NCBI RefSeq assembly: GCF_947495145.1
Contig: NZ_CANLXP010000029.1
Location: forward strand, 1 to 39,372
Length of the DNA stretch: 39,372 nt
From: an uncultured Arthrobacter sp.
Lineage (GTDB): Bacteria > Actinomycetota > Actinomycetes > Actinomycetales > Micrococcaceae
Direction: 5' to 3'
Shown here: in pieces, positions 217-38,984 of the stretch
How positions within the stretch are numbered: the stretch's first letter is position 1
How the letters are laid out: each line of letters begins with the position of its first letter
Program-made: the position numbers and the translations under genes
The notes under the pieces: generated by a model
The model's input: only the letters and a program-made list of their open reading frames with translations
What the model was told of the DNA's origin: nothing
The model's database searches: none

Positions 217-1245
217 GTGGCAGCACAACAGTCGAGCGATCTCGTCATGCATGTCCTGCGCGCCCGTGAAGCATGGCATCAGCGTGACTACCGGGCAGCG
301 CGGCTACTCGCAGCCACCGCCGCCAAGCTGGCGGAGCAGGTGGAAGACCATAATGCCTGGTGGAAAATGACTTTCCTTCAGGCTGAGTGCCTGCGGGACG
401 AGGGTCTGCTGAAGGAAGCACTCGAGTCAGCGGGATCGCTTGGCACACACGGGCTTACGCTCAAATCCGAAGCACTCAAGGCGCGCGTCTATACGCTCAC
501 AGCGTTATGCCAACAGGGGCTGGGGCAACTGGAGCAGGCTGTCGAGAATGCAGACCTGGCGGTGAAAAGCGCCGCTGCCGACCCGGACGCGCCGGAATTG
601 CAAATCGAAGCTCATCACGCTCTGATCGCTGCGCTCGCCGAAAGCGATCGGCTGGACGAAGCCTGGAGCACCTGCCTCGACCTCTCCACCTACATCACAC
701 CGGCCATTCACACGCAGACGGCCGGCAAGGCATATTGGGTTATCGGAAACGTTGCCTTCATGCGTCATCAAGTGAACGACGGTGCCCGCTTTCATCATCT
801 GGCGGGAGAGCATCTTTCCCCCAACAACGACCTGGAACTCTGGGCTCATTTCAACCGTGCCTCAGCTGCGCTCCGCCTTACCGCCGGTGTTGTCGACGCG
901 GAAACGCTCGAGTGCATCGAACGGGCCGAGGTCGCGAGCTCAATCGTCGGCGGCACGGAGCGGGATCAACTGCAGCTTTCGCTTACCCGGGCGCACTGGC
1001 TTTTCCTGACCGGCCAACTCAATGCTGCAGTCGAACGACTGAGGCCTATCTGTGCGGACGGTTCAGCACTCTCGCGGCAAACGGAGGGAGAGGCGAACCT
1101 GCTGCTTGCCCAGGCGCTGTCAGCACGGGGCGAAGAGCTTGAGGCGCTGGCACACTTCGAGACGAGCGAGCAGTGTTTCGTCGACGCCGGCGCACCTGAC
1201 CGGGCCGCGCACGTCCGGAACATCGTGGCCAAAATCAGCGGCTGA
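217..1245 (+). CDS. TPR-repeat protein, paralog 1 (Rap-like architecture)
   Basis: This 342-residue, all-helical, soluble protein has no signal peptide, membrane segment or visible helix-turn-helix. TPR-like helix pairs run through the chain, for example around 'NAWWKMTFLQAECL', 'QTAGKAYWVIGNVAF', 'LSLTRAHWLFLTGQL' and 'EGEANLLLAQALSARG'. It starts at GTG 217 behind an AAGGGG Shine-Dalgarno sequence. It is a clear paralog of the protein at 1778-2821: long blocks are nearly identical, such as 'QTAGKAYWVIGNV', 'FNRASAALRL' and 'RAHWLFLTGQ'. A TPR-only protein of this size resembles the cytoplasmic peptide receptors of Firmicutes (Rap and the TPR part of RRNPP regulators), but also many TPR scaffolds. 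The role as a peptide receptor is inference from the neighbouring repeat-peptide gene. No DNA-binding or enzymatic domain is seen. Confidence 0.8.
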   Translation: MAAQQSSDLVMHVLRAREAWHQRDYRAARLLAATAAKLAEQVEDHNAWWKMTFLQAECLRDEGLLKEALESAGSLGTHGLTLKSEALKARVYTLTALCQQGLGQLEQAVENADLAVKSAAADPDAPELQIEAHHALIAALAESDRLDEAWSTCLDLSTYITPAIHTQTAGKAYWVIGNVAFMRHQVNDGARFHHLAGEHLSPNNDLELWAHFNRASAALRLTAGVVDAETLECIERAEVASSIVGGTERDQLQLSLTRAHWLFLTGQLNAAVERLRPICADGSALSRQTEGEANLLLAQALSARGEELEALAHFETSEQCFVDAGAPDRAAHVRNIVAKISG

Positions 1246-1267
1246 CGGTGCTTCCGCAGGCAAGCAG

Positions 1268-1309
1268 AAGGCCGTGGAAGTCAGCTTTGTTGCTGGCCTC
1301 CACGGCCTT
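1268..1309. terminator. Hairpin between converging TPR gene and peptide gene
   Basis: AAGGCCGTGGA at 1268-1278 pairs with TCCACGGCCTT at 1299-1309, an 11-bp perfect stem, and the loop can pair further (CAGC with GCTG). It lies 22 bp after the stop of the first TPR gene and 40 bp after the stop of the opposite-strand peptide gene, so it probably serves both directions. There is no clear T-tract. Confidence 0.6.
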
Positions 1310-1349
1310 CCTGCCAATCCTGAATAGACGGGATCAGCACAAACGGTGG

Positions 1350-1538
1350 TTAGACCGCCTGGTAGGTGCTGTCAGGCCAGTTGCCGACCTTCGTCGTAGT
1401 AGTGCCATCGGGCCAGTTGCCGACCTTCGTCGTAGTGGTGCCATCAGGCCAGTTTCCGACCTTGGCGGCCTGAGCAGCCGTGCCGCCCCCAACCAGAAGC
1501 AACGCAGTCAGCAACAGTGTTGCGGAGACTTTCTTCAT
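1350..1538 (-). CDS. Small secreted precursor with tandem KVGNWPDGTTTT repeats (candidate peptide signal)
   Basis: It encodes 62 residues from an ATG at 1538 behind an AAGGA Shine-Dalgarno sequence. Residues 1-24 form a classical signal peptide: a Lys-Lys start, a leucine-rich core and an AQA cleavage site. The mature part is almost only repeats: two full copies of KVGNWPDGTTTT and a third, KVGNWPDSTYQAV, ending at the stop. The DNA copies are 36 bp (1428-1463, 1392-1427, then the variant 1353-1391) and mostly identical, so the array looks recent or homogenised. There are no cysteines, so a disulfide bacteriocin is unlikely. A precursor holding several copies of one short peptide is the layout of multi-copy pheromone precursors. 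It lies between two paralogous TPR genes, on the opposite strand. Function is inferred; a structural or wall-associated peptide is possible. Confidence 0.75.
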   Translation of the reverse strand: MKKVSATLLLTALLLVGGGTAAQAAKVGNWPDGTTTTKVGNWPDGTTTTKVGNWPDSTYQAV

Positions 1539-1562
1539 ACTTTTTTCCTTGTCACTTGATGG

Positions 1563-1590
1563 ACGCAGAAGATCGTAGTGCCTTCTGCGT
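1563..1590 (-). promoter_or_regulatory. Hairpin in the 5' leader of the repeat-peptide gene
   Basis: ACGCAGAAG (1563-1571) and CTTCTGCGT (1582-1590) form a perfect 9-bp inverted repeat with a 10-nt loop. It ends 25 nt before the peptide start codon. On the same strand a good -10 (TATACT, 1610-1605) lies just upstream, so the hairpin would be in the transcribed leader. It could be an operator dyad or an mRNA element; which one is not decided. Confidence 0.5.
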
Positions 1591-1604
1591 TGCACAGCAT
1601 CCCC

Positions 1605-1610
1605 AGTATA
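1605..1610 (-). promoter_or_regulatory. Probable -10 box of the peptide gene
   Basis: Read on the minus strand the hexamer is TATACT, five of six matches to TATAAT, about 67 nt before the start codon. A TTTATC sequence 16 bp further upstream is only a weak -35. This predicts a leader of about 60 nt that includes the 9-bp hairpin. Confidence 0.45.
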
Positions 1611-1712
1611 GGGATCAAGTAGCACGGATAAAGGGTTTCTTTTCTCATCTTTTCCGCAGTTTTCACCTGCATTCTGAAGAAAGAGCGGACTTGATTCACG
1701 CTCAAGAGAATT

Positions 1713-1741
1713 TTGATGAGTCGTTCTGACAGAATTATCAG
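1713..1741 (+). promoter_or_regulatory. Probable promoter of the second TPR gene
   Basis: TTGATG (1713-1718) and TATCAG (1736-1741) are separated by exactly 17 bp, each with four matches to the vegetative consensus. Transcription would start near 1748, about 30 nt before the ATG at 1778. The promoter diverges from that of the repeat-peptide gene within one 239-bp intergenic region, so both could be controlled together. Confidence 0.45.
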
Positions 1742-1777
1742 CGGGGATCCATTTGAGCGAAGCTTTGGAATGAGGCC

Positions 1778-2821
1778 ATGAATCAATCCCAGCAGCCCGG
1801 CGAACACGTCTTTCTCGAATTGCGTGCCCGTGATGCGTGGAACCAGCGTGAGTATCATCTAGCACTGAAAACTGCAGCCGAGGCTGCAGCGATGGCGCGA
1901 AGCAACGCTGATGACAACGCGTGGTGGAACATGACCTTCCTTGAAGCAGAGTGTTTGAAGAAGACCGGCGCGTTCCATGATGCTCAACGCCTGGCTGAAG
2001 CACTTCGGGAAGACGTTCTCACCCAGCGTTACCCTGATTTATCAGCCAGAGTGTCCACCTTCCTCGCCGGAACGCTGCAAGGCCAAGGTGATCTGGCGCT
2101 TGCCGCCGAAGAGGCGCGCCGAGCTGTCGCCATGGCTGCGTCGGCCGGTGACTCGCCAGACCTGCGCATTACCGCTCAACACGCGCTCATCGCAGCACTC
2201 GCCGAGAGCGACCAGATCGACGACGCCTGGGAGGAGTGCCTTCGACTGGCCGAACTCATCACACCCGACGTAAACTCGCAGACTGCTGGAAAGGCCTACT
2301 GGGTTATCGGGAACGTGGCCTACCTCCGGCGGGATGCCGCCGTCGGAACCGGATACCACCGGCGCGCCGCCAGCAACCTCTCTCCCTCCAACGATCTGGA
2401 CCTGTGGGCCAGGTTCAACCGTGCCTCCGCTGCGCTTCGCCTCGCTGCCGGTGTCGTCGAGCCTGAGACCCTCGAGTGCATCGAGCGGGCCGAGCTGGCC
2501 GCGTCGATCGTCGGCGGTAGTGAGCGGGACAAGCTTGAACTGTCCCTCACACGGGCGCACTGGCTGTTCCTTACCGGACAGTTTGATGCTGCCGTGGAGC
2601 GGCTCCGGCCCATCTGTGAAGCGTCCTCCCTTATAGCCAGCCAAACCGCAGCGGAGGCCTATATGCTCCTGGGCCAGGCGCTCGCGCGATCCGGCGACCC
2701 GCTCGAGGGATTGTTCCAGCTGGAGAAGAGCCAGGAATTGTTCAGGCAGTCAGGAGCCCCGGACCGTGAAGCGCAGGTGGCCACGCTGATTGACGAAGTC
2801 CACCGAACGGCCGACTCCTAA
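1778..2821 (+). CDS. TPR-repeat protein, paralog 2
   Basis: This 347-residue soluble protein is paralogous over its whole length to the one at 217-1245. The shared N-terminal pattern (A-R-[ED]-A-W-[HN]-Q-R-[DE]-Y) and the central 'HALIAALAESD' and C-terminal 'TRAHWLFLTGQ' blocks make this plain. TPR-type helical hairpins fill the chain; there is no DNA-binding domain, membrane segment or signal peptide. The ATG at 1778 has a GAGG sequence 4 nt upstream. It diverges from the repeat-peptide gene, a common arrangement when a receptor and its ligand precursor are co-regulated. Divergence is strongest around residues 60-115, where ligand specificity could differ. A peptide-receptor function is inference; a generic TPR scaffold is the alternative. 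Confidence 0.8.
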   Translation: MNQSQQPGEHVFLELRARDAWNQREYHLALKTAAEAAAMARSNADDNAWWNMTFLEAECLKKTGAFHDAQRLAEALREDVLTQRYPDLSARVSTFLAGTLQGQGDLALAAEEARRAVAMAASAGDSPDLRITAQHALIAALAESDQIDDAWEECLRLAELITPDVNSQTAGKAYWVIGNVAYLRRDAAVGTGYHRRAASNLSPSNDLDLWARFNRASAALRLAAGVVEPETLECIERAELAASIVGGSERDKLELSLTRAHWLFLTGQFDAAVERLRPICEASSLIASQTAAEAYMLLGQALARSGDPLEGLFQLEKSQELFRQSGAPDREAQVATLIDEVHRTADS

Positions 2822-2984
2822 GCGACGGCATCCGGATCTTGAAGCGTGTAGTGTAGCGTCCGTCACATTTCACGCTGCAAGGTTCGCGTCGTCGTCTCAA
2901 CGCGTTGGTAGTGACATGGTCAAACCGGGGGCTTTCCAGGCGGGAAATCACATCACAAGGACGACGCCCCCAGCAAGGAAAGCG

Positions 2985-3377
2985 ATGTTCGGCATGAATT
3001 CACTCTGGCTGATGCCAACTGAAGTACCGGCAACAGCCGCGCCGGTCTCCGTTGTCCGTCTGGTCTTGCCGGAGGGCGAACACATCACAACAGAGATTGC
3101 AGAGTCATTCGCGGAGCAGGTCCGCGCCGAGGGCGGCGGCGTGCCTCAGCCGGTGCTCATTGTCATCAGCGGGATTGCGTCCCTGAGCCGGGGGGCTCGT
3201 GCCGTCTTCAGCCGCTCGCGCTCCGCGTCAGCGATCGCCCTGGTTGGGGCCAGCGCCGTGGACAGGGTGCTTGCAAACTTCCTTCTCGGAGGAGAACCTC
3301 CCGCGTGCCCCACCTCCTATTTCGGAGATGAGGACACAGCGGTCGCGTGGTTGCTGGAGCGCATCCATGGCAGCTGA
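2985..3377 (+). CDS. STAS/SEC14-like (SpoIIAA-like) small protein
   Basis: It encodes 130 residues from ATG 2985 behind an AAGGAAAG Shine-Dalgarno sequence; a longer in-frame reading back to 2790 would overlap the TPR gene and is not favoured. The pattern is that of a small alpha/beta STAS/SEC14-like domain: a strand 'VSVVRLVLPEGEHIT', a helix, the strand 'PVLIVISG', then 'SAIALVGASAVDRVLANFLLG' and a C-terminal 'PTSYFGDEDTAVAWLLE', as in actinobacterial proteins annotated STAS/SEC14 domain-containing. No membrane segment is present. It overlaps the start of the GGDEF/EAL gene by 11 bp, so the two are translated together. It may be a regulatory partner of that enzyme. The family call is by pattern only. 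Confidence 0.65.
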   Translation: MFGMNSLWLMPTEVPATAAPVSVVRLVLPEGEHITTEIAESFAEQVRAEGGGVPQPVLIVISGIASLSRGARAVFSRSRSASAIALVGASAVDRVLANFLLGGEPPACPTSYFGDEDTAVAWLLERIHGS

Positions 3378-4920
3378 CGCCGGTGATCCCCGCCTGGCCA
3401 TGCTGGTAGACGGTATTGTGCGCCTCTCGCGAGGGGACCTCGGCAGCAGAATAGTGCCTTCGCCGGCGCGCGACGACGTAGACGCCGTAATTACCGGAGT
3501 GAACCTCCTGGCAGAAGAACTTGAACTGGTCTACCGGCAGTTTGAGAAGCGGGTGGAAAACCGCACGGCGATGCTGCACCAGGCACATCTGGACATGAAG
3601 CGCATGGCGATGACCGACGCGCTGACCGGCCTGTCCAACCGGGTGGATCTGGTCGAAAAGATTGAAAAAGCGCTCTCCGCTCAACGCGATGGCAGTCCTC
3701 CCCCTGCCCTGCTGCTGCTCGACCTCGATTCCTTCAAGAACGTGAACGACCGTTTCGGGCACGACGCTGGCGACGACGTTTTGCGTGAAGTCGCAGAACG
3801 TTTGCGCGGTGCAGTCCGCACCACCGACACCGTGGCACGGTTGGGCGGCGACGAATTCGCCATTTTGGTTACTCAGGCAACGATGGAGGTTGCCCTTGGA
3901 GTGGCCAATCGGGCCCTGGATGTGCTGTCCAAGAGTATCGATGTAGGGGAATTCGACGTGCATCCCCGCGCGAGCATCGGCCTCCGCGTCGCTACTGAAG
4001 AGCACACGGCCGAGTCCCTGCTTCATGAGGCGGATACCGCCATGTACGCGGCCAAGAACGAGGGCCGCAGCGCCATCAAGGCCTTCGAGCCGGTTATGCT
4101 CTACGACCGGCAGCTCCGCACCCTGATGGCATCGGAACTGCGCGACGCCATTGGGACCGATCAGTTGTGCGTGCACTATCAGCCGATTGTGAATCTGCGC
4201 GACGGGTCGATCAACGGAGTGGAAGTCCTGGTGCGCTGGGCGCATCCCACCAGGGGAATGATCTCCCCCGAATCGTTCATTCCGCTCGCCGAGGAAATCG
4301 GGGCCATTTCCGATCTCGACCGCTGGGTCATGGCGACCGCGCTTCAGCAGTATGCGATTTGGCGGGCCGCGCGCCTGATTCCGGAAGACTTTCAGATACG
4401 AGTCAATATCTCGGCGATCGAACTCCGCCAACTCGACATGGTCGACTTTGTCCGCGGACTGCTCAAGCGCATGTCAATGCCGCCGCGCTCCCTGGTTATC
4501 GAGATCACTGAGTCAGCGCTGGTCAGCGGCGGCGAGGTCGAAACCTACTCGTTGCTGAGCTTCAAGCAACTCGGCGTCTGCATTGAGATCGATGATTTCG
4601 GCACGGGCTACTCGTCGATCAGCTACCTGCGCAAGCTGCCCGTCGACATGGTCAAGGTGGATCGTTCAATTCTTCGTGAGCCGGCAACCGGCTCCTGGCA
4701 GCCTGAATTCGTTGCCGCCGTCTTCCAACTCATCCGGGCAGCCGGACTCGGAGCCGTCTTCGAGGGCATCGAAACGCAGGAACAGGCAGAATTCCTCCGA
4801 TCCCTCGGCGATGTCAGCGGCCAGGGCTTCTTTTTCAGCAAACCGCTCCCTGAGCCGGAGGTGACAGCGCTGCTGCTGTCCGGAAGCGCACTCCCGCTCC
4901 CCCAGGTCGGCCAGCACTGA
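3367..4920 (+). CDS. Cytoplasmic HAMP-like/GGDEF/EAL c-di-GMP turnover protein
   Basis: It encodes 517 residues from ATG 3367. Residues 1-80 look like a HAMP-type helix pair ('LSRGDLGSRI...DDVDAVITGVNLLAEEL') running into a coiled coil, but there is no membrane segment. A GGDEF domain follows, with an intact GGDEF motif and an RTTD inhibitory-site motif five residues before it. The EAL domain has EVLVRW in place of EALxR, and otherwise keeps the acidic and metal-binding set: 'RVNIS', 'EITES', 'IDDFGTGYSS', 'VKVDRS', 'FEGIETQEQ' and 'GQGFFFSKP'. Both activities, diguanylate cyclase and phosphodiesterase, are therefore plausible. The 11-bp overlap with the STAS-like gene suggests that protein supplies the input signal in place of a PAS or membrane sensor. 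A strong terminator follows. Confidence 0.9.
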   Translation: MAADAGDPRLAMLVDGIVRLSRGDLGSRIVPSPARDDVDAVITGVNLLAEELELVYRQFEKRVENRTAMLHQAHLDMKRMAMTDALTGLSNRVDLVEKIEKALSAQRDGSPPPALLLLDLDSFKNVNDRFGHDAGDDVLREVAERLRGAVRTTDTVARLGGDEFAILVTQATMEVALGVANRALDVLSKSIDVGEFDVHPRASIGLRVATEEHTAESLLHEADTAMYAAKNEGRSAIKAFEPVMLYDRQLRTLMASELRDAIGTDQLCVHYQPIVNLRDGSINGVEVLVRWAHPTRGMISPESFIPLAEEIGAISDLDRWVMATALQQYAIWRAARLIPEDFQIRVNISAIELRQLDMVDFVRGLLKRMSMPPRSLVIEITESALVSGGEVETYSLLSFKQLGVCIEIDDFGTGYSSISYLRKLPVDMVKVDRSILREPATGSWQPEFVAAVFQLIRAAGLGAVFEGIETQEQAEFLRSLGDVSGQGFFFSKPLPEPEVTALLLSGSALPLPQVGQH

Positions 4921-15850: not shown

Positions 15851-18800
15851 TCAGAGCACGTCGAACCGGTACAGGAAGGCAGCCATCGCATCCCTGTTCA
15901 CGGACTGCACCGGCTTGAACGTACCGTCGGGGTACCCCGTGGTGATGCCGGTGGAGGCGAGCCAGCTGATCTCTTTGAAGAACTGGTTGTCCTTCGTGAC
16001 ATCCGGGAAGGTGGCCGGCTCGGATCCGTTGGTAGGCGCTTCCACCATCCGGTAGAGGAAAGCCGCCATCGCATCCCTGTTCACCGGAGTGGTCGGACGG
16101 AAGGTTCCGTCATCCCAGCCCTTGGAGATGCCCTGCTCAGCCAGCCAGGCCATTTCCTTGTAGTGCTCCATGCCGGGCTTGACGTCCTTGAACGGTGACA
16201 CCGCGGGAGCACGATAGGTCGGTTCGCCCGCCATCCGGTAGAGGAAGGCCGCCATGGCGTCCCTGTTCACCGGAGTGACGGGACGGAAGGTGCCGTCATC
16301 CCAACCTGTGGTGATTTCGCTGTCCGCCAGCCAAGCCATCTCGGTGAAGAACTGGATGCCTTGCGGGACGTCCGGGAACGGTGCCGGCAGTGCGGCCAGT
16401 TCAGCCGATGGCAGTGAGAAGGGGCCCTGGCCGTTGGCATTGATCGCCGCCACCTGGAAGCGGGTGGCGAGGTCCGCCCGGAGACCCGTGACGGTCAGGC
16501 TTGTTGCCGTAGCATCAGCGGTGCGCAAGGCTCCGATCTGGGAGCCTGCAGGGTCGATTGCGCGAACCACGAAGCCGGTGACCGGTGATCCGCCATCATC
16601 CGCAGCGGCCAGCTGAACAACCGCTTCGCCGATGCGGGGGGCGGCAGCGACGTCGACCACAGGGGTCTCTGCCGTTGCCACAGTGCCTGGCAGGGTGGGT
16701 GGCGTGGTGCTGGAAAGGCGTCCGACGACGGTGAAGTCGGTTGTCCTTCCGATCGACACCGGATCGATCGAGTTGCCTGCTGCGTCCGTTATCGCCTCAA
16801 CTTCGAAGTAGTTTGTGTCGAATGGGCTTCCCACCACCGGGCCGGCCTGCGCGCCATCGCCCAGGTACCCTGCCGGAGCATCGAGCTGGCGGAGCACCGG
16901 CCCGATACCGGCTTGCGCCATCAAATCGAAGGAGCAGTGCACGTCAAGGCAACCGACGTCGTTGGTGTAACGCAGGTCACCTTCCGTGTCGGCGGTCAGG
17001 ACATCCACACCGTACGGCTGGGTGATGCGATAGGTGACTCCGGGTGTCATGCCTCGCAGGTCGTAACGGGTACGTCCGAAGGCGACCTCGTCTCCCTCGC
17101 GTGGCACTTCATTGGCGAAGGCCGCTTCGAGTGCGAGCACCAGTCGTGCCCGGCCGCCGTTTGCGATTGGCAGTTCGGCGTCGGCTGACCACCAGAAGGC
17201 CTCCCCTGGGAAGCGGTCTGGGTACTTGACCGGAACCTGATCAAAAGGTGACTCAAGGCCACACATCGTGTCGTTCAGGCATAGTGCGAGTTCCACTGGA
17301 TCGAGAGCGCGGTTTCCGTTCTCTTCCGTTGCCGGGGCACCGTAATCCGAAACCGTTACCGGGAACGGGTGATCCTCACCTGGCTCGCTGATCACATCCA
17401 GATGACGCACGTTGTAGCTGGTGGTTGAGAGCGGTCCCTGAACGTCGCCGTCGGTCACGGCTATTGCGCTCACCAAATTACTGCGGGACAACATGAACGG
17501 TCCCGTGTACTCCAGAGTGGTGCCTGCGGGTGCCCCACCTTCGAGGCGCGGACGCGTGCCGTCGGTCGTGTAGTAGATAGTCGACGCTGTGTCCGGGGAG
17601 GATGCGACGGCGGCGGTCAGCTCGATCCGCTGCGGACCCTTAAGGACGCCTGGGCTGACGGAGACGCCCAGGTTTGTCGCTGTGACTACGGGAAGGGATG
17701 TATCCACCGTGTAGTTCTGCGTGGTAACAGCGGAAGTTCCCGTTGAGTCGATAGCGATGTACTTCAACACCGTGTTGCGTGGAGTTCCAACGGGCAGGCC
17801 AGTGGCCGGATCGATGGCCGGGCCGGGGATAACCACTGCCGCAGCCGACGTCGCTGTCCCGTCGGAGGCAACCCTGATGCCGTTGTTCGCGCTCGGCTCG
17901 GAGCCGTCCGTCGTGTAGATGATGTCTGATTCCGCAGGGAACGAAGACTGGATCTTCACGTTGGTTTCATTGCCGTACAGGTCACCCGGCTTATCGATGG
18001 TCGTCTTCAGCTGGGCGAGCTTGCCGGTCACGGAGAACATGTTCGTCTCCATCACCGTGGGAGCTGTGATTTCATCATCGATGGGACCTTCAACACGGAA
18101 GACGTTCTCGCCACTGGTTCCGCCCTCAACGGTGTGAAGCACCCCCGGATTGCCGATGTATCCCTCAGGAGCAGTTGTCTCCCAATTTGTCCATCGAAGG
18201 AAGGGACCGATGTGCCCGCTCATGGCGTTCTCGAAACCACAGGGTGGGCTCATGCAGCCAATGTCCTGGGTGTCGTTGATTTCACCCTCGACGTCGGTGA
18301 CGAAATCCTCTATACCGTAGGGAGTGGTGACCCTGTAGGTAGCGTTCGGAACCAACCCATCAACACGTACGCGCTGGCGGGTGAAGGCAATCTGCTTGCC
18401 GACAGCAACGCCGCCGGCGTCGCCGAAAGCGGCCTCTTGCGCATAGCCAAGCATCGCGCGGTCACCCGGAGCGTCCTCAATCTCGGCTTCCGCTGCCCAC
18501 CAGAACCCCTCGTCCGGATAATTCTCCGGGAACTTGATGTCCGTCGTTGGGTCGGGGATTTCCGCACCGCACATGTCGGCCTCGAGGCAGAGCTCCAGCC
18601 GAAGCGGATCCTGGTCGTCAGCGGTGCCGGGCAGATCCAGGCCCTTGTCCTCGTACCAGAAAGGATATCCGTTCGAATGATCAATTGGTCCGACCGCGCC
18701 GAGGCCGTTACCGCCTGGAGTCGTAACAGCGGTTGCGACTGATGGTGCGACGAGCAGCGGCAAACAAACAGCACCGGCCGCAGTGAATGCCGCCACCCGC

Positions 18801-38748: not shown

Positions 38749-38763
38749 GAAAATTCCTTTCCG

Positions 38764-38932
38764 AACGCCGCTGAAGTTAGCTGTCGGATTCGGGCAAGGA
38801 ATCAGCCCGGCCGGCCAATGCACACACTGGACGGCTTCACCCCAAGACGACACAATGGCCGCCAAAAGAAGTGGGTCCTCCACCCCTGCCGGTATACGAA
38901 CGATGGCTGGCTTTCCGGCAGGGTTAGGCGTC
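38764..38932 (-). promoter_or_regulatory. c-di-AMP riboswitch (ydaO-yuaA type) in the M23 peptidase leader
   Basis: On the minus strand, P1 pairs GACGCC (38932-38927) with GGCGTT (38769-38764). A hairpin CCCTGCCGG/CCGGCAGGG follows, then the conserved runs 'GGAGGACCCAC' and 'GGGGTGAAGCCG', and near the 3' end CCCGAATCCGACAGCTAAC (38794-38776). The last is a hallmark of actinobacterial ydaO elements, which sit before rpf, NlpC/P60 and M23 genes. P1 ends only a few bases before the AAAGGAA ribosome site (about 38755-38761), so ligand binding could block translation. Confidence 0.88.
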
Positions 38933-38984
38933 GAGACCAGCGTCACCAATTCATTTCGGCGACTGGGCCACTCTACAGGGACGG

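Follow-up and report, generated by a model that had tools for sequence, protein, structure and literature searches.

Two peptide-TPR protein pairs in an Arthrobacter sp. that resemble RRNPP pheromone signaling, with conserved linkage of an HTH-less branch to a GGDEF-EAL gene

Does a small gene for a repeat-bearing peptide, located between the genes of two paralogous tetratricopeptide repeat (TPR) proteins in an Arthrobacter sp., belong to a pheromone system of the kind known from Firmicutes? The locus lies at the start of a 39,372-nucleotide (nt) complete contig (the whole stretch of DNA analyzed, hereafter the window, to which coordinates refer), which begins 216 nt before the first TPR gene. 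TPR-A (217–1245, + strand; 342 amino acids, aa; GTG start) and TPR-B (1778–2821, + strand; 347 aa) are 55%–56% identical, each preceded by a ribosome-binding-site-like sequence (by eye), and Pfam TPR models match both, though below curated cut-offs. Both lack a helix-turn-helix (HTH) domain and are the predicted receptors of peptides A and B, respectively. Our computational analysis makes it very probable that two pheromone-receptor pairs belonging to an RRNPP-like family lie side by side here, and that the best candidate partner of the HTH-less branch is a GGDEF-EAL enzyme. An earlier note on this DNA had proposed an actinobacterial analog of Rap/Phr and RRNPP systems; the pairing of peptide and TPR protein, some co-variation, and kinship with RRNPP-like XRE-HTH-TPR proteins bear this out, whereas the precursor that it took to be shared does not.

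Precursor B (1350–1538, − strand; 62 aa; MKKVSATLLLTALLLVGGGTAAQA-AKVGNWPDGTTTT-KVGNWPDGTTTT-KVGNWPDSTYQAV) consists of a Sec-like leader and three VGNWPD units. The leader (residues 1–25; 1464–1538, −) has an AxA-type site, AQA, at residues 22–24, directly before the first unit, where cleavage would be expected, and the three tandem units (1353–1463, −) occupy 1428–1463, 1392–1427, and 1353–1391. At the DNA level, they appear as a 36-bp repeat at 1372–1463 (2.6 copies, score 163). The window has four tandem arrays in total, and only one of the others, with a 186-bp repeat, scores higher. Another genome of the genus encodes a precursor 98% identical to precursor B at the equivalent position, and the cores of the three units differ by six synonymous and no non-synonymous changes (summed across copy pairs); for these two reasons, precursor B is more than a chance open reading frame (ORF). 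A protein-database search with precursor B yielded three relatives at E ≤0.1 among 17 candidates. Its gene is divergent to TPR-B, a position conserved in relatives. All sequence observations of the earlier note (a 62-residue precursor with near-identical units, on the strand opposite to two paralogous TPR proteins) were confirmed.

Homologs of the TPR proteins (E ≤1e-10) occur in 143 of 295 genomes of the family Micrococcaceae and in 17 of 32 genera. In a scan of named genomes, the titles among the best 80 of 286 loci were Arthrobacter, Pseudarthrobacter, Paenarthrobacter, one Micrococcaceae bacterium, and one Vibrio cholerae 35D. The TPR locus in the last of these records (L127) groups with Arthrobacter; the record, titled Vibrio cholerae strain 35D, is probably mislabeled and is included in the counts. 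Clustering of 149 TPR loci at 90% identity gave 92, comprising 59 HTH-less and 33 HTH-type loci (L108 and L110 were classed as HTH-type by tree and sequence), and 89 of the 92 were testable (3 had too little upstream DNA). We searched for the motif [GNDVWI]xWP[DNHYFGL] within an 18–140-aa ORF on the divergent strand, ≤700 nt upstream of the TPR gene, and found it at 77 of the 89 loci; controls gave 2/89 on the other strand, 0/87, 6/87, 3/86, and 0/86 further upstream, and 1/92 and 3/92 downstream. Hence, the pairing of a secreted-type peptide with cytoplasmic TPR proteins that the earlier note described is conserved, and the outcome that it had named as counting against it, TPR homologs mostly lacking a peptide gene, did not occur. 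A propeptide gene adjoins the receptor gene, as in RRNPP(A) signaling. When the rule was relaxed (900 nt and a wider motif, with the spurious rows L053, L061, and L152 taken out of the peptide list by eye), a peptide was present at 55/59 HTH-less and 25/33 HTH-type loci. Contig breaks or ends explain the four HTH-less misses, namely, TPR-A of the window, L059 (whose matching precursor is on a different contig), L121, and L152.

For TPR-A, a separate precursor (MKRLSAV...STLIDNWPN; core LIDNWPN) was found in the same genome, where contig C3 begins; it is missing from the window because the window contig starts so close to TPR-A. In five relatives in which both TPR genes are present (L054, L055, L062, L063, and L064), a separate divergent precursor lies 205–241 nt upstream of each of them, and the TPR-A-type precursor carries a single copy at its end (TLIDDWPH and similar). 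The two halves of the relatives' TPR-A intergenic region are detectable at the window end and the C3 end, and positions 1–77 of the window are a dispersed repeat with four further occurrences in the genome (contigs C10, C18, C24, and C34), two of which are at contig starts. We therefore infer that an assembly break at this repeat split TPR-A from its precursor. The genome has a third pair on contig C27, an XRE-HTH-TPR protein with a divergent ORF containing three GGIGDWPL units.

Across 80 precursors, the core is present once in 42, twice in 23, three times in 6, four times in 8, and eight times in 1, so that the multi-copy form stressed in the earlier note holds for the window's precursor, with its three units, but is not essential to the system. 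In the HTH-less class, 34 of 37 single-copy precursors stop exactly one residue past WP. Signal-peptide-like (SP-like) leaders were recognized in 75 of the 80 (by hydropathy only, with start codons chosen to favor a leader), and L051, L094, L100, L102, and L109 are without a clear Sec leader. The last four, all HTH-type, are 16–40-aa peptide ORFs ending in or near the WP core, to which another export route may apply.

Selection on the units was assessed in 120 copy pairs from 39 multi-copy precursors, a set made up of precursor B and 38 others. Between copies, the six core codons show 240 synonymous versus 23 non-synonymous changes (proportions pS, 0.56 and pN, 0.013), 18 of the 23 coming from L089; since the copy-finding pattern requires W and P, WP-less copies (one in L086, one in L095) are not part of this count. 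With the W and P codons excluded, the numbers are 185 versus 23 (pS, 0.60; pN, 0.020), and 97 versus 7 when only adjacent copies are compared. This excess of synonymous changes means that selection maintains the amino acid sequence of each copy. The mature peptide would be about 6–7 residues long, probably VGNWPD or KVGNWPD for precursor B.

In the wider family, the TPR proteins carry N-terminal XRE-HTH domains (HTH_31 or HTH_3 in 20 of 22 relatives scanned with Pfam); the HTH-type copy of this genome is L051. In an HTH-rooted tree (built without one short core, L152), the HTH-less branch forms one clade. The family is of HTH ancestry and has an XRE-type HTH domain that was lost in one branch, as in Rap, in line with RRNPP(A) receptors. 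The C-terminal TPR superhelix of RRNPP(A) is also present: in the AlphaFold2 (AF2) model, TPR-B folds into an all-helical TPR superhelix (mean predicted local distance difference test score, pLDDT, 94.4), a second AF2 model of the family has a pLDDT of 92.1, and the Pfam scan of relatives showed TPR models as well. Foldseek with TPR-B returned no RRNPP receptor among the 50 rows listed, while with an HTH-type model PlcR came 32nd and Rap came 36th, 39th, and 49th among the matches listed. Because RRNPP receptors were not singled out, we set Foldseek aside as a sole means of identifying them.

What the HTH-less receptors might act on is suggested by their surroundings. A gene for a DUF7793/SpoIIAA-like protein (2916–3377, +) starts 94 nt after TPR-B, and an 11-nt overlap joins it to a gene for a 517-aa GGDEF-EAL protein (3367–4920, +) with the motifs GGDEF and DDFGTGYSS, in which EAL reads EVL. 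A GGDEF-EAL gene lies within 6.2 kb at 59/59 HTH-less loci versus 0/33 HTH-type loci (for which the stretches extended ≥3.0 kb on each side). At the 57 HTH-less loci with the gene in the same stretch, it is always on the same strand (57/57), downstream in 53 and upstream in 4, and at most 3 kb away in 44; in L083 and L085, it is 4.5–4.6 kb downstream. The 59 loci come from 54 records, since in five records a pair of TPR genes has a single GGDEF-EAL gene in common, and because the HTH-less loci are one clade, the linkage is conserved but does not amount to 59 independent events. Orthologs of the enzyme were found in 109 of 295 family genomes. Also within 5 kb of the TPR gene are a processive-type glycosyltransferase gene (PF13632, BcsA-like by our own reading; 14 records) and a gene for a carbohydrate-binding-module protein (PF02839, secreted by our own reading; 13 records), each family being identified from one representative; in several records, these genes sit between the TPR and GGDEF-EAL genes. 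Collectively, this gene order suggests that the HTH-less receptor probably acts on the GGDEF-EAL enzyme and that the branch controls cyclic di-GMP (c-di-GMP).

The best-surviving alternative accepts the peptide-receptor pair but has the HTH-less TPR protein work through another partner (a transcription factor, e.g., the HTH-type paralog), with the linkage being an inherited neighborhood. We regard this as possible, though rather unlikely. It would fit the descent of the HTH-less loci from one clade, the 13 of 57 same-stretch gaps that measure 4.5–6.2 kb (several with intervening genes), and the existence of GGDEF-EAL orthologs with no HTH-less TPR gene nearby. However, an inherited neighborhood fits less well with the uniform strand, with gaps of ≤3 kb at 44 loci, with linkage that is kept at the four loci where the enzyme is upstream, and with the complete lack of the enzyme gene at the 33 HTH-type loci.

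To relate peptide and receptor residues, we used 81 pairs (79 listed plus the window's two; L142, with too short a core, was left out) and tested the peptide residue before WP, here x, against columns in TPR numbering by clade-restricted shuffles. Residue x was most strongly associated with columns 219, 220, and 216 (z scores 6.9, 6.7, and 5.6; family-wise 0/400 shuffles), which all lie on one helix (207–223); the codons of TPR-B residues 216–220 are at 2423–2437 (+). The earlier note had proposed a check of exactly such co-variation between the repeat and the TPR groove, and the association was found, although controls came close and a stricter threshold weakened it (see below). For the residue after WP, associations with Q168, K172, and T169 were lost at the stricter block threshold, and they were not relied on.

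Several results weigh against our reading. Leader-position controls reached a z of 6.3 versus 6.9 for x, other core positions reached 7.0 (F66) and 6.2 (S248) at scattered columns, and the stricter block threshold gave a family-wise P of 0.065 for x. No peptide was recognizable at 8 of the 33 HTH-type loci. In the structure comparison, RRNPP receptors were equaled or outscored by unrelated TPR proteins (LGN, MalT, and APC). Some GGDEF-EAL orthologs are in genomes where no HTH-less TPR gene was seen nearby, and the enzyme therefore has no need of the TPR protein; a physical partnership between the two is what conserved linkage suggests, at most. In a rate-weighted version of the co-variation analysis, x topped at column 219 (z, 4.2), followed by 220 (3.9), but leader labels topped at 3.3–4.2, and two other core positions reached 4.6 (F66; E143). 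The tree-based count given next stands without branch-length correction.

Because controls had reached z scores of 6.3 and 7.0, mutual information was judged insufficient, and we turned to this count and to a table of residues. On a tree built without helix 207–223, x changes on 24 branches, and 219 or 220 also changes on 13 of these, compared with 17 of the 136 other branches (Fisher P = 1.9e-5, branch length uncorrected). An x of D goes with R or K220 in three separate lineages (TPR-A relatives, L051, and L058), R with E219 (2/2, one lineage), S with D219 (4/4, two lineages), W with M220 (15/15), and I with V220 (5/5). By contrast with its relatives, TPR-A of the window has A219/L220, and its peptide A has N at x. 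A D or E at x is without a basic receptor partner in L088, L089, L094, and L100. What distinguishes x from the controls is that its three columns adjoin on one helix and that its residue table is chemically sensible. The case for the peptide lying in the groove at TPR residues 219/220 is suggestive to good, not conclusive.

Together, these results point to the following putative mechanism. The short precursor would be exported via the Sec route, as its leader implies, and trimmed to a peptide of about 6–7 residues with the core [VI][GN]xWPx. An oligopeptide permease may then re-import the peptide; the genome has five genes for SBP_bac_5 (Opp/Dpp-type) binding proteins, candidates that make import possible in principle. 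Inside the cell, the peptide would be bound in the groove of the neighboring TPR protein, where residues 219/220 may read the residue before WP, as supported by the co-variation. The ancestral receptor, with its XRE-HTH domain, would have been a transcription factor, whereas in the window's branch the HTH was apparently lost once, and the receptor most likely contacts a partner protein, as Rap does. With the neighboring GGDEF-EAL enzyme as the best candidate partner, the peptide level would set c-di-GMP and thereby, in many strains, the adjacent exopolysaccharide-type glycosyltransferase.

Export itself could be questioned, since the peptide might be sensed before export in the producing cell only, as a private or self-limiting signal rather than a population signal. 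The five precursors without a clear Sec leader would agree with this, but SP-like leaders in the other 75 of 80, and precursors in distant relatives that are little more than a leader and a short tail, make it improbable. We consider it still less likely that the TPR protein is a cytoplasmic chaperone or immunity protein for a small secreted peptide that serves as a toxin, a bacteriocin, or a component of the cell surface. A short leader peptide beside a conserved cytoplasmic protein would suit such a role; however, many of the partner proteins have DNA-binding HTH domains, the units are short, under strong purifying selection, and present in up to 8 copies, co-variation occurs at a groove position, and no modification or immunity genes were recognized in the 13 conserved neighbor clusters read. 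That one multi-copy precursor serves both TPR-A and TPR-B, the arrangement of the earlier note, was rejected as very unlikely, for although precursor B lies physically between them, TPR-A has its own divergent precursor in this genome (C3) and in the five relatives, the cores are unlike (IDNWPN or IDDWPH versus VGNWPD-like), and residues 219/220 differ between the receptors in L054, L062, and L064 (S/R versus A/L), those of the window and of L063 being A/L in both.

The two-pair system that we favor works like RRNPP signaling, from which it differs in phylum, peptide family, and probable output. In the Rap-Phr systems of Bacillus (structures 4gyo, 4i9c, and 8rsu), phr genes lie downstream of rap, whereas here the precursor is divergent and upstream, the peptide is of WP type, the linkage is to GGDEF-EAL, and the hosts are Actinomycetota; no Rap sequence was among the matches listed in the sequence search. 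The targets of Rap phosphatases are response regulators, Spo0F and ComA among them; here, the conserved neighbor is the GGDEF-EAL gene. In PlcR-PapR, NprR-NprX, and AimR-AimP, a small secreted peptide gene adjoins the receptor gene, and the receptor has the same order of an XRE-type HTH followed by a TPR superhelix. PlcR was matched at E = 6.8e-10, although the match covers the HTH part only, and the peptides described here are of an unrelated family, often in tandem copies, in another host phylum. RpfR, a receptor of the fatty-acid signal DSF with GGDEF-EAL domains of its own, likewise ties a cell-cell signal to c-di-GMP turnover, but here the signal would be a peptide and the receptor a separate TPR protein. 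More than one pheromone copy per propeptide is shared with Phr3T and Phr105, which have two (versus up to eight here) and need extra proteolysis according to the available part of the source (PMC11343458).

As far as the accessible text of one large RRNPP survey goes, the intracellular peptide pheromones of this kind that have been described come from Firmicutes and their mobile elements, and the survey uses Firmicutes and viruses to illustrate its workflow (PMC10075063). The accessible part of a review of actinobacterial quorum sensing covers gamma-butyrolactones, LuxR homologs, and, more generally, peptides that are cyclic or modified (PMC4748050). Among the literature matches listed, which exclude preprints and most subscription papers, none reported an RRNPP-type system in Actinobacteria, in Arthrobacter, or with c-di-GMP, and the string GNWPD matched only influenza neuraminidase. 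As far as these searches show, an RRNPP-like imported-pheromone system would be new for Actinomycetota.

Related arrangements were also seen beyond the 92-locus counts. In another genus of the family (g37), L225 has a precursor with five AVGNWPD copies, encoded upstream of the gene for an HTH-TPR protein. Four homologs in family f17 vary: the peptide of L221 has three GGSWPT units, that of L222 ends in DTWPA, and no WP peptide was seen for L223 or L224. A more distant XRE-TPR regulator, L211, was matched over columns 3–387 (profile comparison, probability 98.9); it and its relatives are accompanied by tiny leader-plus-tail ORFs (...ANWPHH, ...ANWPHVP, ...GFPWPK, and ...APWPHCC in other classes of the phylum; ...GPGPMCC.. 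and ...CCTKG in other families of the order). Under a fixed rule (an SP-like ORF had to have WP, PW, or CC at its C terminus; L232 and L255, which were too short, eight g109 loci, and L270–L274 uncounted), such ORFs were divergent and upstream at 11 of 20 loci in other classes, compared with 0, 0, 0, 0, and 1 of 20 in five control regions. Within the order, they were divergent and upstream at 7 of 12 loci and upstream on the same strand at 3 of 12, with 0/12 in four other regions. Because the rule was chosen after the peptides had been seen, the phylum-wide result is a lead rather than a test.

Among individual loci in other classes, L228–L231, L233–L235, L242, L246, L252, L253, and L257 have minimal 25–33-aa peptides next to the XRE-TPR gene, made of a leader and a tail ending in WP, PW, FPG, or CC types. 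In other families of the order, secreted-type ORFs with CC at or near the end (further inside in L262) lie by XRE-TPR genes in L258, L260–L265, and L267, and L259, L266, and L268 have same-strand upstream versions of such CC-type ORFs. Eight loci of one genus with 6–10 Mb genomes had no WP or CC peptide by the XRE-TPR gene. Seven of the eight (L239, L240, L243, L244, L247, L250, and L254) have a divergent hydrophobic ORF that stops or runs on after [AG]-x-x-GP, possibly a third peptide type.

We find the evidence evenly poised on a broader proposal, namely, that XRE-TPR proteins with divergent WP, PW, or CC mini-precursors form a hitherto undescribed pheromone language across Actinomycetota, in which a Micrococcaceae branch, having lost the DNA-binding domain, regulates GGDEF-EAL proteins, c-di-GMP, and exopolysaccharide under the control of a secreted peptide, and x with residues 219/220 makes up a specificity code. 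If the system is as proposed, Actinomycetota would gain a signal set that is encodable and cheaply synthesized, with likely kin in other actinobacterial classes. It would make testable the use of private channels per cell (three pairs in this genome), the evolution of pheromone specificity via the 219/220 code, and the way in which a TPR receptor deprived of its DNA-binding domain acquires a new output, here probably c-di-GMP.

The intergenic region between the divergent genes of precursor B and TPR-B (1539–1777) has a GC content of 46%. A 9-bp inverted repeat, ACGCAGAAG-N10-CTTCTGCGT (1563–1571 and 1582–1590), is located in the leader region of the gene for precursor B and could be an operator or an RNA hairpin. 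No promoter match fell within 1539–1777 (the promoter/terminator scan overall found 1 versus 0.7 expected and 2 versus 3.9), and an Rfam scan at gathering scores gave no match at the peptide/TPR locus. No conserved palindromic operator was shared among intergenic regions, with matches in only 3 of the 31 listed (L073, L086, and L091) under a rule of exact 7-bp arms and spacers ≤6, outside which the window's inverted repeat (spacer 10) falls. A mobile-element or phage origin was set aside, as one HTH-TPR protein, L090, matched nothing in protein searches of plasmids and phages, and viral contigs scanned with A1 yielded no relative.

Surroundings of the HTH-type loci include purC-like genes downstream in 21/31 (named purC by our own reading). 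Upstream of the peptide gene, one or more ABC exporter genes are present in 20/31, possibly co-regulated or export-related; the exporter family in one representative is PF00664 and PF00005. Elsewhere in the window, the 186-bp tandem repeat is at 16045–16383 (1.8 copies, 79% matches), and a cyclic di-AMP (c-di-AMP) riboswitch (RF00379, 59.1 bits) is located at 38752–38938 (−).

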